Source: Nitrosococcus wardiae
GTDB taxonomy: Bacteria > Pseudomonadota > Gammaproteobacteria > Nitrosococcales > Nitrosococcaceae
NCBI RefSeq assembly: GCF_004421105.1
Contig: NZ_CP038033.1
Location: 2,809,659-2,873,658, forward strand
Direction of reading: 5' to 3'
DNA length: 64,000 nucleotides
In this document: positions 1,448 through 7,184 of the stretch, in pieces
Position numbering within the stretch: the first letter of the stretch is position 1
Layout of the letters: each line of letters begins with the position of its first letter
Notes under the pieces: generated by a model
Told to the model about the DNA's origin: nothing
The model's database searches: none
The model's input: only the letters and a program-made list of their open reading frames with translations
Translations under genes and position numbers: made by a program

Positions 1448-1781
1448 GCCCGGGTGGCGAAATAGGTAGACGCAAGGGACTTAGTCACTTGAGCACCTAG
1501 ATGGGAAACCTCTAGCGTGAATGGAGTCAAATTCGGGGAAACCTCAGCACTTTTTAAGGTGGTGGCAATCCCGAGCTAAGCCTTATTTAAAGGAAAGTGT
1601 AGAGACTTAACGGCTCCTACCTAAGTTTATTGTTTCGGGTCCCAGACGAGGCACTGAATAGGGTAAAGATAAAGTCCAGACCACAAATGTGTTTTATTAA
1701 GCACAGCAGCGAAAGTTGTAGCGGGTAAGAAAATCCCTTGGGGGAAACCCCGTGCCGGTTCGATTCCGGCCCCGGGCACCA
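1448..1781 (+). tRNA. tRNA-Leu(UAA), split by a group I intron
   Basis: The 5' exon is 1448-1482 and the 3' exon 1730-1781. Joined they give an 87-nt class II tRNA with acceptor GCCCGGG/CCCGGGC (1448-1454 with 1771-1777), discriminator A, encoded CCA and a variable arm. The anticodon stem AGGGA (1475-1479) pairs perfectly with TCCCT (1734-1738) only after the exons are joined. That creates loop CTTAAAA with anticodon UAA (U1482, A1730, A1731). The position is that of E. coli leuZ, third in the Gly-Cys-Leu trio. Splicing is required for function. Confidence 0.93.
1483..1729 (+). ncRNA. group I self-splicing intron inside tRNA-Leu(UAA)
   Basis: This 247-nt intron lies between anticodon positions 34 and 35, the site used by the cyanobacterial and plastid tRNA-Leu introns (subgroup IC3). 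The core elements are visible: P-like AATTCGGGGAAACCT starting near 1529, Q GGCAATCCCGAGC at 1564-1576, R GTGTAGAGACTTAACGG at about 1597-1613, and S AAGATAAAGTCC at 1666-1677. A GCGAAAGT tetraloop helix lies near the 3' end. The last exon base U1482 can form the P1 wobble with G1491 (CTT with GAG), and the terminal omega-G is base 1729. There is no room for a homing endonuclease and no ORF inside. Confidence 0.92.
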
Positions 1782-2581: not shown

Positions 2582-4181
2582 TCACAGCACGTTTGTCAGG
2601 TAAAGGCGGTGCAGGGGGGGCGCTTGTTGGCCAAAATAAAAGCCAAGCACCAACGTAATAATGGGTGGAAGCACCTTGATAAGCGAATCAAACACAAGTT
2701 TGCCCGGGGCCTCACCGTCTTTTTCGGCTGAAGGCCCCCAAGTGCAAACCGCTATCCCTAAAATAAGTAAAAATGCAAGAACAGATAAAACACCGGCCGC
2801 GAAATATAATCGTCGAACCTCTTTACGCAGGACTTCATCGCCTTGACGATAGCCATAACTGTCATTGAAAGGCTTAAAGTTATCTAGGTCCACATAGCAG
2901 AGGACAAAGAAACGCTCTTGGTCGAGCAATTTCTGAAGATGTTCATTGATGGGAATATTACCGGGCAGCAAGGTCAATGGGTTAGCATAGCGAGCATTCC
3001 GTAGTTGAATTCTGGTAATACACCGGAGCAAATCGACGACGGTGCCTACCCCTAAATAGCGACCCCGATCGGTAATGATAAAATCATCTTGTACGCGCGT
3101 GTCGTGACGCTGGGTGATCGCTTGGCTAAGGTTATCAACCCGTTGATGCTTATCGGCGATGATGGGACATCTGTCCATCAATATAAGTCACGTCCATAAC
3201 GACTAGCATAGAGTTCCATAAATCGATCCCGGCGAACGATGCCCATGGGATGACCTTGTTCAGTGACTACGGGAAGGCTTTGAAGTTCCGGCTCGGCTAC
3301 GAATCTATCGGCGACCGTGCTGGCAACTTCCTCTGGGATAACCGGTTCGATGGGCACTAGCAGATAGGCGACTGTTTCCTCACAGCTGGTGGTGTAGCCC
3401 GAAACAGGTTCAAAGACCATAAAGGTCGAAGCAGGGGCACGGAAATCACCGGTTGAATATGGGGCCGACCAAAATAGTATCCCTGACCAAGTTCAATTCC
3501 CATTTCCTTGACAACAGTATACTCTTGAGCCGTTTCTATTCCCTCGGCGATGACACGGCAATTTAGATTTTGGGTAATCTCTAAAATAGAGCGTACGAAT
3601 TGGCATTTGGTGGAATCTTCATGGATATTTTGAATGAAATGGCGATCCACCTTGACATAGTCGGGCCGTAGCTCGGACCAGGAACGAAGCCCTGAATATC
3701 CCGCGCCCAGATCATCGATAGCAATAGCAAAGCCGGTGGTACGGTAATATTCAGTGGCCTCGCGCATCAGAGCATAATCAGTGATAGGCTGTTGTTCGGT
3801 CAGCTCAATGACCACTTGGCTGGTAGGAATTTCATTTTGGCTTAGAAGCTCAATGAGCCCACAGTAATTAGGACCAGGTTCAAGGATGACACAAGGGTTG
3901 ACATTGAGGAACAACTTGCCGGGTAGACGAAGCTGTTGATAACGTTGAATGATGAGCTCTTGGCAGAGACCTTGGAGATCGGCTAAAGCACTGGTACGCC
4001 CAGCGGCATCGAATAGGTTGAGGGGGGAGTGGAGATGGGTATCTGAAGGACCGCGAATAAGGCCTTCGAAACCGAAAATATCCCGTTTGCTAAAAAGGAC
4101 GATGGGTTGAAACAATACAGTAAGCGCACGATCGTGGATGATTTGCGCTAGCAAATTGGGCTCGGCAGACATGGATAACAT
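2582..4181 (-). pseudogene. broken EAL-CBS-GGDEF cyclic-di-GMP protein, fused to a membrane-protein fragment
   Basis: Read from 4181 downward, codons 1-260 encode an EAL phosphodiesterase domain (FEGLIRG in place of EAL, then FLNVNP, VIELTEQQ, IDDLGAGYSGL, IAEGIET, QGYYFGRP). The frame shifts near 3420 into a CBS-like segment (VADRFVAEPELQSLPVV). It stops at 3178, then resumes in another frame (FIITDRGRYLG, NPLTLLPGNIPINE, CYVDLDNFKPFND). The GGDEF domain is cut before its signature, at GDEVLR. It then runs into an unrelated tail with two membrane segments (LSVLAFLLILGIAV and IITLVLGFYFG). Two frame breaks, an apparent small deletion at 3178 and the chimeric end make this a pseudogene. Confidence 0.85.
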
Positions 4182-4461: not shown

Positions 4462-6399
4462 ATGCAAGAAGTTACGGTGCCACCACCTCAGCTTACCATC
4501 AAAGCGATAGTGCTGAGCGTCCTGCTGGCAGCGCTCCTTGCGGGGGCAAATGCATATCTAGGGCTGTTCGCTGGCATGACCGTCTCGGCTTCAATCCCCG
4601 CAGCGGTCATCTCCATGGGAGTGCTGAGTTTGTTCCGCCGCTCCAATATTTTGGAGAACAATATTGTCCAAACGGGAGCTTCAGCCGGCGAGTCCCTAGC
4701 TGCCGGGGTGATCTTCACCCTTCCTGCACTGGTGATCATGAACTATTGGCCTGCTTTCGATTACGGGTGGGTGCTGGTAATCGCCGGCCTAGGCGGGTTG
4801 TTGGGAGTGCTATTCACCATTCCCTTGCGCCGTTCCCTCATTGTGGAGGAAGGACTCACCTTCCCGGAAGGTATTGCCACAGCGGAAGTATTGCGGGTCG
4901 GTGAGAATCCAAAACGGGGTCTCGGCTACCTCATGGGGGCTGCCCTAGCCGGTGGGTTGACCAAGTTGGCCGAGACGGGATTGGGGCTTTGGAATAGTGT
5001 GGCCCAGACAGGGGCCTACATGAGCAAAGCCGCTGTTTATGGAGGGGCTAATCTTTCTCCCGCTTTACTCAGCGTGGGCTATATTGTGGGCATCAATATT
5101 GCTGGGTTAGTTTTCGCCGGTGGCGTTATTGCCTGGTGCTTGGCTATCCCCCTGTATAGCGTCTTCTTTCTCGAAACCCACCCAGAGTTGGCAGCTCTGG
5201 CCGCCAAAGGCGTCTCGGCAGTTGATCTGGCCTATGCTATCTGGTCAAGTGAAGTGCGCTATCTGGGGGTGGGAGCAATGCTGGTGGGTGGGCTCTGGGC
5301 ATTATTTTCCATGCGTCGCTCCTTGGCCACGGGTCTTCATGGAGGGCTGCGCCAATATGCAGGGCATAGAGACAAGGTTTTATCCCCTGCCGAGCGGGAT
5401 ATCCCCATGCAGTGGGTACTTCAGGGTATCCTGCTGCTCTTGGTACCTCTTTTCTTTCTCTATCATAGCATCCATAGCCAGGTGACTTTGGGTATTAGTC
5501 TGACTATGACCCTGGTTATGGTGATTGCCGGTTTTCTCTTTGCCTCCGTAGCAGCTTACATGGCCGGTTTGGTCGGCTCATCCAACAATCCTATCTCCGG
5601 CGTAACCATCGCTACTATCCTCTTTTCCTCCCTGGCACTACTATGGCTCATGGGTTCGGAAGCAGCGATAGGCCCCATGGCGGCTATCCTGATTGGCGCG
5701 GTAGTGGCTTGTGCTGCTGCTATTGCGGGGGACAATATGCAGGATCTGAAGGCGGGTTATCTGGTGGGGGCAACCCCCTGGAAACAGCAACTCATGCAGG
5801 GAATAGGCGTCCTTTCCTCGGCTCTGGTCATGGCGCCCATCTTAAATTTACTGCTCAAAGCCTATGGTATGGGGGTCCCGACACCTGAGCACCCCACCCC
5901 CCTGTTAGCTCCCCAGGCGACTTTGATGGCTTCAGTAGCGGAAGGCGTTTTCGGCGCTGATCTTCCCTGGAAGATGGTAGGGTTAGGGGCGTTAATGGGA
6001 GGGGCCATTATCGGAGTTGATACTTGGCTTAGCGCCCGTGGTTCATCCTGGCGGGCGCCGGTGTTGGCCGTAGCAGTAGGCGTCTACCTGCCATTAAACC
6101 TTTCCGTGCCGATTTTTATCGGTGGGTTGATTGCCAAGGCGGCTGAGGGGGTTCGCCATCGTCTTGGCGATCTGGAGCGTAGGGAACGCTATCGGCGCTA
6201 TGGTCTGTTAGTGGCTGCTGGTTTAATCACTGGTGAAGCGTTGGCCGGTATTTTGATGGCAATTCCTATTGTAATTACGGGCAACCGTGAAGTGTTGGCA
6301 TTGGCCCAGGCCCCCTGGGGGGGGCTTCCTGGGCTGGTGGTGATGGGAGTTATTGCCTGGGGGTTATATCGCGCAGCCTGCGGTGGTCTCGGAAAATAA
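4462..6399 (+). CDS. OPT-family oligopeptide (or metal-chelate) transporter
   Basis: A polytopic inner-membrane protein of 645 residues with 14 or more hydrophobic segments. The N-terminal OPT signature is present (LLAGANAYLGLFAGMTVSASIPAAV, then NIVQTGASAGES). There are also the conserved EEGLTFPEG and GSSNNPISG motifs and a DNMQDLKAGY loop. The family imports oligopeptides or peptide-like metal chelates by proton symport; the substrate cannot be told here. I chose ATG 4462 because AAGGAG (4447-4452) is 9 bases upstream; a TTG at 4441 would include that site in the coding region. The stop overlaps the next ATG (TAATG), so the two genes are probably co-translated. A CRP-type palindrome lies upstream. 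Confidence 0.9.
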   Translation: MQEVTVPPPQLTIKAIVLSVLLAALLAGANAYLGLFAGMTVSASIPAAVISMGVLSLFRRSNILENNIVQTGASAGESLAAGVIFTLPALVIMNYWPAFDYGWVLVIAGLGGLLGVLFTIPLRRSLIVEEGLTFPEGIATAEVLRVGENPKRGLGYLMGAALAGGLTKLAETGLGLWNSVAQTGAYMSKAAVYGGANLSPALLSVGYIVGINIAGLVFAGGVIAWCLAIPLYSVFFLETHPELAALAAKGVSAVDLAYAIWSSEVRYLGVGAMLVGGLWALFSMRRSLATGLHGGLRQYAGHRDKVLSPAERDIPMQWVLQGILLLLVPLFFLYHSIHSQVTLGISLTMTLVMVIAGFLFASVAAYMAGLVGSSNNPISGVTIATILFSSLALLWLMGSEAAIGPMAAILIGAVVACAAAIAGDNMQDLKAGYLVGATPWKQQLMQGIGVLSSALVMAPILNLLLKAYGMGVPTPEHPTPLLAPQATLMASVAEGVFGADLPWKMVGLGALMGGAIIGVDTWLSARGSSWRAPVLAVAVGVYLPLNLSVPIFIGGLIAKAAEGVRHRLGDLERRERYRRYGLLVAAGLITGEALAGILMAIPIVITGNREVLALAQAPWGGLPGLVVMGVIAWGLYRAACGGLGK

Positions 6400-7184
6400 T
6401 GCTCTCCCATCTGCAAATCCGAATTCTCTGGCTACTAGGGATAGTGGTGATCTGCGGCCTGGGAATATTGTTTTTGGACCCTATCCCTCAGGACCCAAAC
6501 TATCACCGCTTTGCGGATGATCGTCCTTATTTCGGGATTCCCAATTTTTTAAATGTGATCTCCAATCTCCCCTTAATACTTGTTGGCATTATCGGGTTGG
6601 GGTGGACACTCAGGGTTAGAAAGGTTGCACCTGACCCCTTATTGCTTTTGCCATATGGAATCTTTTTCGCGGGTGTTTTTCTGACAGGCATGGGTTCCTG
6701 CTACTATCACGCCTTACCTGAGAATAAGACCTTAGTTTGGGATCGCTATCCTATGACCTTGGCCTTTATGGCCCTTTTCAGTGCTATTTGGATGGAACAT
6801 GTGAGTCGCAAGGGAGGCATAATTTTACTACCCGGGTTTTTGCTGCTCGGTTTTTTCAGCGTTTGGTATTGGGAGTATACCGAGCGCTCAGGTCTGGGGG
6901 ATCTCCGTCTTTATGGAGGAGTCCAGTTTGTACCGCTACTGCTTATCCCCTTTATCCTGGCTTGGTTTCGTTCCGGTTATAGCAAGCGCCACTATTTCTT
7001 TTATGCCCTCGGTTTCTATGGTCTGGCAAAGGTCTTGGAGCATTTTGATAGGGAGCTTTTTCAAGCAACCGGCGTTGTCAGTGGCCATTCCCTTAAGCAT
7101 TTAGCGGCGGCATTGGCCGCGTTCGTTATCCTACTCATGCTCTGCCATAGGCAATTTCAGGAAAAGCCGGGCAGAATATTATAA
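6399..7184 (+). CDS. ceramidase-family (CREST superfamily) membrane protein
   Basis: 261 residues with seven or so hydrophobic segments. The alkaline ceramidase family motif is clear: FLNVISNLP near residue 48, then GMGSCYYHALPENKTLVWDR around 105-125, and a C-terminal GHSLKHLAAA with conserved histidines. Known members are zinc-dependent membrane hydrolases; many bacterial homologues have no tested substrate. The start codon overlaps the OPT gene stop (TAATG). An amide-bond membrane hydrolase is inferred, not shown. Confidence 0.8.
   Translation: MLSHLQIRILWLLGIVVICGLGILFLDPIPQDPNYHRFADDRPYFGIPNFLNVISNLPLILVGIIGLGWTLRVRKVAPDPLLLLPYGIFFAGVFLTGMGSCYYHALPENKTLVWDRYPMTLAFMALFSAIWMEHVSRKGGIILLPGFLLLGFFSVWYWEYTERSGLGDLRLYGGVQFVPLLLIPFILAWFRSGYSKRHYFFYALGFYGLAKVLEHFDRELFQATGVVSGHSLKHLAAALAAFVILLMLCHRQFQEKPGRIL

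Follow-up and report, generated by a model that had tools for sequence, protein, structure and literature searches.

A group I intron in the tRNA-Leu(UAA) gene of Nitrosococcus wardiae and its HNH-bearing, phage and plasmid relatives

The tRNA-Leu(UAA) gene at positions 1448–1781 (+) of the window, the 64,000-nt stretch of DNA from the nitrifying bacterium Nitrosococcus wardiae analysed here, is interrupted by a group I intron of 247 nt, inserted between tRNA positions 34 and 35. We consider it highly probable that this is an active, self-splicing, IC3-like intron without an open reading frame (ORF), ancestral to its family and derived from a group of introns that spread by homing. The window element is thus a group I intron of tRNA-Leu(UAA) that lacks an ORF and is fixed in its family, and such elements are already known. 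New and unexpected are its HNH-armed relatives at the same site, the copies in jumbo and huge phages, and a copy on a conjugative plasmid. The wider interest lies in these relatives, which make mobility at the tRNA-Leu(UAA) site testable.

The split gene and the intron core

The 5′ exon (1448–1482, +) ends in CUU (C32 U33 U34), the ORF-less intron (1483–1729, +) ends in G1729 (omega-G), and the 3′ exon (1730–1781, +) runs from A35 to the CCA. In intron mode, ARAGORN reports the gene as Leu(taa) i(36,247). Joining 1448–1482 to 1730–1781 yields an 87-nt tRNA-Leu(UAA) whose cloverleaf is complete and which carries the CCA, as the first-pass annotation had predicted for the removal of 1483–1729; the 34/35 insertion site that it had proposed is the one on which the ARAGORN intron mode and the fold of the spliced 87-mer agree. 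It had also pointed to a covariance-model search, and this gave a match to Rfam RF00028 (Intron_gpI) at 1472–1693 with 68.1 bits (E = 3.9e-15, full model 1–253), above the gathering cut-off of 50 bits. Across the complete chromosome (4,022,640 bp) the window intron was the sole RF00028 match. The boundaries of the intron are given by exon joining.

In its default mode ARAGORN missed the gene, which it found with the intron option. Being blind to the split gene, default ARAGORN makes such genomes seem to be without an essential tRNA. ARAGORN labels were corrected by hand, with tRNA-Ile(CAU) introns having been called Gln(CUG) and some Leu introns Phe or Ser.

Twelve helices (P1–P9b, including the P3/P7 pseudoknot) were written on the window sequence, where all of their pairs are standard, and scored over 45 gammaproteobacterial Leu introns. 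In P1 (1480–1493, +), exon CUU 1480–1482 pairs with intron GAG 1491–1493 around an 8-nt loop, the P1 layout that had been described earlier, with a U.G pair at the splice site; both the helix and the splice-site pair U1482.G1491 are invariant in the 45 homologues. P2 (1497–1501/1511–1515, +) shows two-sided changes in five of its five pairs, while P3 (1523–1528/1612–1617, +), which is pseudoknotted with P7, is paired in 100% of cells and shows such changes in three of six pairs. P4 (1532–1538/1569–1575, +) encloses P5 (1542–1543/1564–1565) and P5a (1548–1552/1557–1561), and is followed by the P6a hairpin (1581–1584/1590–1593, +), whose loop is the position of the HNH ORF in relatives. The guanosine-binding core P7 (1604–1607/1673–1676, +) is invariant and lies around P8 (1619–1622/1661–1664), which is partly variable. 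The remaining helices on the same strand, P9.0 (1680–1682/1724–1726), P9a (1688–1691/1702–1705) and P9b (1707–1710/1715–1718, with a GAAA loop), all contain compensatory changes among the 45 homologues. With the P3/P7 pseudoknot, the P4–P6 core and G1729 all present, the group I core and terminal omega-G noted in the first-pass annotation are borne out.

Paired cells made up 97.0% over the 45 homologues, compared with 86.8% when shuffled; 28 pairs had two-sided changes (16.1 in shuffles), and the covariation score was 0.320 (0.132 in shuffles). None of 500 shuffles was as high as the observed pairing and covariation values, and slid versions of the helices collapsed. This covariation support comes from P2, P3, P5, P6, P8 and P9, with P7 and most of P4 invariant; since P1 and P7 do not vary among the homologues, what they show is conservation, not covariation. 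Folded without constraints, the precursor was more stable than shuffles (z = −3.6).

Relatives in bacteria, phages and plasmids

We searched 369 gammaproteobacterial genomes with a model built from the Leu exon and P1–P5, counting scores of at least 72 bits, below which there was a gap down to 62. The threshold was reached in 29 of the 369 genomes, and at least 27 of the 369 sampled, from about 23 families, have the same-site Leu(UAA) intron, a count that leaves out L288 and L292. The latter (genome G068) has a related intron at the same site in tRNA-Leu(CAA), a jump to a sister tRNA. In GTDB genomes, a pattern search returned at least 120 loci, of which at least 102 parse as true interrupted Leu(UAA) genes. 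Among the matches listed, most are from Gammaproteobacteria and others from Burkholderiales, Rhodospirillales, Acidobacteriota, Chloroflexota, Planctomycetota, Bacillota and Cyanobacteriota, the taxon names being those of MAG records, in which contamination is possible. Beyond the phylum of the gammaproteobacteria, Leu(UAA) introns occur in at least five further phyla (at least six in all). One candidate transfer, in a Phycisphaerales MAG (L219), was rejected, its gammaproteobacterial uvrC-pgsA synteny marking a probable contaminating contig.

The intron is neither rare nor freshly gained; bacterial introns of its group are widespread at this site. The first-pass annotation had called it rare, with one published case, a view contradicted by its presence in at least 27 of the 369 genomes of the class and by the tRNA-Leu(UAA) introns published for Beggiatoa and Thiomargarita (PMC4853749).

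Interrupted Leu(UAA) genes were also found in the IMG/VR contigs L115, L117, L118, L120, L123, L125, L126, L131, L132 and L134. The introns of L117 and L131 adjoin tail-fibre and tail genes (phrog_529, phrog_3269), and that of L125 adjoins tail-type genes together with over 20 tRNAs; for L115, L120, L132 and L134, with few or no informative PHROG matches, the viral status is the one given by IMG/VR. The pattern matches L116, L121, L122, L124, L127, L128, L130 and L133 were dropped, their tRNAs being uninterrupted, and the cyanobacterial-type intron pattern gave no match in viral contigs. Two of these contigs hold further RNA elements: in L125 (136 kb), an OLE RNA and a tmRNA lie at 5822–6158 among the tRNAs, and in L132 (79 kb) tRNA-Arg(UCU) is also interrupted, with three group I introns called by Rfam (reverse strand, 4817–5228 and 6407–6677).

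Three phage genome records contain the intron as well. Agrobacterium phage Atu_ph07 (NC_042013) has a 278-nt intron in tRNA-Leu(UAA) (L303, NC_042013.1 at ~112.9–113.2 kb), the 3′ part of which overlaps the annotated hypothetical protein gp154. The huge-phage record LR756501 (LR756501.1, L302; 735 kb) has a 205-nt intron in tRNA-Leu(UAA), and LR756511 (595 kb) a 700-nt HNH-bearing one (L301, LR756511.1 409169–409955); we take these LR75 records to stem from the 2020 huge-phage study. The word “intron” is absent from the main text of the Atu_ph07 paper and of the 2020 huge-phage paper, and a jumbo-phage survey of 2026 refers to intronic sequences in the tRNAs of phages in a passage that does not use the term “group I”. 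Group I introns in tRNA-Leu(UAA) of huge and jumbo phages are apparently unreported so far. Their presence in named phage genomes runs counter to a 2014 review, which placed all phage introns then known in protein genes despite the many phage tRNA genes (PMC3984707).

On the Bradyrhizobium conjugative plasmid NZ_CP094524, a 204-nt Leu(UAA) intron adjoins trb genes (L256, NZ_CP094524.1 3505–9655). A large plasmid of Tritonibacter mobilis (L135, NZ_CP015231.1 64895–65829) carries a Leu-like group I intron in a different tRNA.

At least about 19 of the same-site introns, 650–810 nt in length, contain an HNH ORF: at least 16 in GTDB contigs, two in IMG/VR contigs (L123, L125) and one in LR756511 (L301). 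The main HNH type matches PHROG 10822 (E = 5e-47) and is located in the P6 loop; L222 (GTDB) has a different HNH in the P5 loop, and the HNH ORFs of L235 and L236 (GTDB) look truncated. In gammaproteobacteria, Acidobacteriota, L123 and a cyanobacterial MAG the main-type ORF lies antisense to the tRNA, an orientation that counts against homing; the sense orientation is found in Chloroflexota, L125 and LR756511. The cyanobacterial MAG (L249, Alkalinema sp. RU_4_3) has a non-classical Leu intron that groups with Acidobacteriota and Thiotrichaceae copies. On the intron tree, HNH presence changes 15 times and closely related introns differ in whether they have the ORF, which is the trace expected from a homing cycle of gain and loss. 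In the relatives that encode it in the P6 loop, the HNH endonuclease probably cuts uninterrupted tRNA-Leu(UAA) genes, into which the intron would then be copied. In the window intron there is no endonuclease ORF, the mark of a mobile intron; no HNH homologue of the main type was found in the window's genome, and weak partial matches occur in three of the six Nitrosococcaceae genomes. The HNH-bearing kin and the copies in giant phages suggest the route by which the intron spread.

Descent and origin of the intron

The tRNA-Leu(UAA) gene lies in a uvrC-pgsA-Gly-Cys-Leu block. The uvrC gene is cut by the window edge, and its 3′ end (54–362, +; Pfam UvrC_RNaseH_dom and HHH_5) is followed by pgsA (359–1012, +; Pfam CDP-OH_P_transf, E = 2.6e-38), by a candidate promoter-like site before the tRNA cluster (TTGACA-16-TACAAT at 1014–1041, +; consensus match 11/12), and by the upstream neighbours tRNA-Gly(GCC) (1056–1131, +) and tRNA-Cys(GCA) (1197–1270, +). 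A candidate terminator-like hairpin (1798–1829, −; 14-pair stem, T run on the minus strand) follows the tRNA-Leu gene. Farther along, at 2582–4181 (−), EAL, CBS and GGDEF pieces occupy successive frames that overlap, and resemble one signalling gene broken by frameshifts.

Each of the six Nitrosococcaceae genomes (three genera) has one RF00028 match, in tRNA-Leu(UAA), and in all six tRNA-Gly, tRNA-Cys, pgsA and uvrC lie upstream of the split gene. Both the block, confirmed by Pfam and tRNA calls, and the native character of the tRNA, a single-copy host gene within it, had been recognised in the first-pass annotation and stand. Across the family, identity is 78–96% for the introns and 95–100% for the exons, and a tree that unites the six introns in one clade is essentially as good as the free tree (AU 0.68). 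The same locus in all six genomes and the single clade point to an ancestor of the Nitrosococcaceae that most likely already had the intron. Among 57 genomes of the order's other family, RF00028 matches lie solely outside tRNA-Leu(UAA).

With ~225 aligned columns, the intron trees have unstable deep branches, which shift once phage rows are included. The Nitrosococcus introns sit in a 30-row gammaproteobacterial set with support of 96/93, which is lost when more phage rows are added, and the classical cyanobacterial introns form their own clade (100/98). Introns of Acidobacteriota and Thiotrichaceae cluster with that of the cyanobacterial MAG (100/98), and the phage intron L125 is nested within Bacillota introns (100/91 and 100/99). 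A single clade of gammaproteobacterial Leu introns was rejected (AU 0.019), and a single clade of all Leu introns gave an AU value of 0.099. These groupings and AU results make transfer between phyla likely somewhere in the intron family.

The tRNA-Leu(UAA) introns of the different phyla may well constitute one homing lineage, alternating between HNH-armed and ORF-less states and carried in part by jumbo and huge phages and by conjugative plasmids with interrupted tRNA-Leu(UAA) genes of their own, with the Nitrosococcus copy as a fixed, ORF-less end state; we give this broad reading an even chance. Whether introns are ancient or mobile has long been argued, with cyanobacterial and plastid tRNA-Leu introns as a standard example. 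The HNH-armed same-site introns, together with the phage and plasmid copies, make that debate testable at the bench. If the one-lineage reading is true, the textbook “ancient” site would be a recurrent target of mobile elements.

The scatter could instead reflect vertical descent from an intron ancestral to many phyla and mostly lost. The single site, P1 layout and core type across at least six phyla are consistent with such an ancestor, as are the AU value for all Leu introns, which does not reject one clade, and the apparently vertical descent within Nitrosococcaceae and within Thiotrichaceae. However, the rejected gammaproteobacterial clade, the cluster of Acidobacteriota, cyanobacterial MAG and Thiotrichaceae copies, the nesting of a phage intron among those of Bacillota, and the very existence of HNH ORFs, phage copies and a plasmid copy all argue for movement, and we regard purely vertical descent as unlikely, though it keeps some weight.

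Less probable still is a move straight into Nitrosococcus from a cyanobacterium or a plastid lineage, as the first-pass annotation had suggested. The insertion site and P1 layout are indeed shared with the cyanobacterial intron, and a sister relation between the Nitrosococcaceae and the classical cyanobacterial clade is not formally rejected by the AU test (p = 0.175); that tree, however, is 13.4 log units worse, and the classical cyanobacterial set stands as a clade of its own. The motif GAGCACC...GTGAATGGAGTC is common to Nitrosococcus and other gammaproteobacterial introns, whereas cyanobacterial introns have GAGCCTT...GTGGA, and the sole cyanobacterial MAG with a non-classical, HNH-bearing intron (L249) resembles a recipient. 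The phylogeny proposed at the outset thus groups the intron with gammaproteobacteria and not with the cyanobacterial clade, and a cyanobacterial origin of the Nitrosococcus copy is disfavoured. Of the suggested gain by transfer, a recent or cyanobacterial event finds little backing, the intron being old in the family and at one locus in all six genomes. Which way the intron first moved, and on what carrier, is inferred. On the likely model, homing-driven spread would have been followed by loss of the ORF and then by vertical inheritance in the Nitrosococcaceae.

Predicted splicing in the host and likeness to known introns

The genome has 44 uninterrupted tRNAs, among which the Leu anticodons are CAA, CAG, GAG and UAG; the earlier observation that tRNA-Leu(UAG) is intron-free thus extends to the other three. 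The first-pass annotation had named a further intact tRNA-Leu(UAA) gene as the thing to look for, and the tRNA gene search of the complete chromosome found none. UUA codons, 48 of which occur in five neighbouring genes, are read by tRNA-Leu(UAA) alone under standard decoding rules. With its sole tRNA-Leu(UAA) gene split and UUA codons in use, the cell must remove the intron; splicing in Nitrosococcus, as we infer it from these gene contents, may need a protein helper. A pattern search (with GACRC, not GACGC) found the uninterrupted UAA junction in none of the six Nitrosococcaceae genomes and in most genomes of the order's other family. The idea that C32 goes with the intron was dropped, because the intact tRNA-Leu(UAA) genes of the sister family also have C32.

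That the insertion is dead and unspliced, leaving the tRNA gene a pseudogene, is hardly credible for the only Leu(UAA) gene of a complete genome in which UUA codons are used, with exons 95–100% conserved and core helices intact across the Nitrosococcaceae, and catalytic inactivity of the intron should be lethal. In the active intron that we favour, exon CUU of the precursor would pair with intron GAG to form P1, an exogenous guanosine at P7 would attack after U34, and the freed 5′ exon would attack after G1729, so that the exons are ligated to give a functional tRNA.

The group I introns in cyanobacterial and plastid tRNA-Leu(UAA) genes (Paquin et al. 1997, as cited in PMC4033280) share with the Nitrosococcus intron the gene, the 34/35 site, the P1 pairing and an IC3-like core, but differ in their P2, J2/3 and P9 sequences and form a separate clade in trees. 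No HNH ORF was seen in the classical cyanobacterial copies sampled, unlike some relatives of the Nitrosococcus intron. Those of Beggiatoa BOGUAY and Ca. Thiomargarita nelsonii (PMC4853749) are likewise group I introns in the same tRNA of a gammaproteobacterial host. Thiotrichaceae introns, recovered here as L150, L186 and L225, come from another family and branch with the Acidobacteriota copies, not with Nitrosococcus. An intron of the same kind, group I and in the same tRNA, was reportedly described by Vepritskiy and co-workers in 2002 in a deep-subsurface gammaproteobacterial isolate of another family. Azoarcus-type tRNA-Ile(CAU) introns also place an IC3-like core in a proteobacterial anticodon loop, but in another tRNA and at another site, and they form a separate clade in trees. 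The endonucleases have a counterpart in I-SspI, which is not known to be an HNH protein. Encoded by an intron in a cyanobacterial tRNA-fMet (Bonocora and Shub 2001, as cited in PMC3984707), I-SspI is likewise a homing endonuclease aimed at the anticodon region of a tRNA; the tRNA is a different one, and where the window copy has no ORF, the relatives of the Nitrosococcus intron carry an HNH protein (PHROG 10822).
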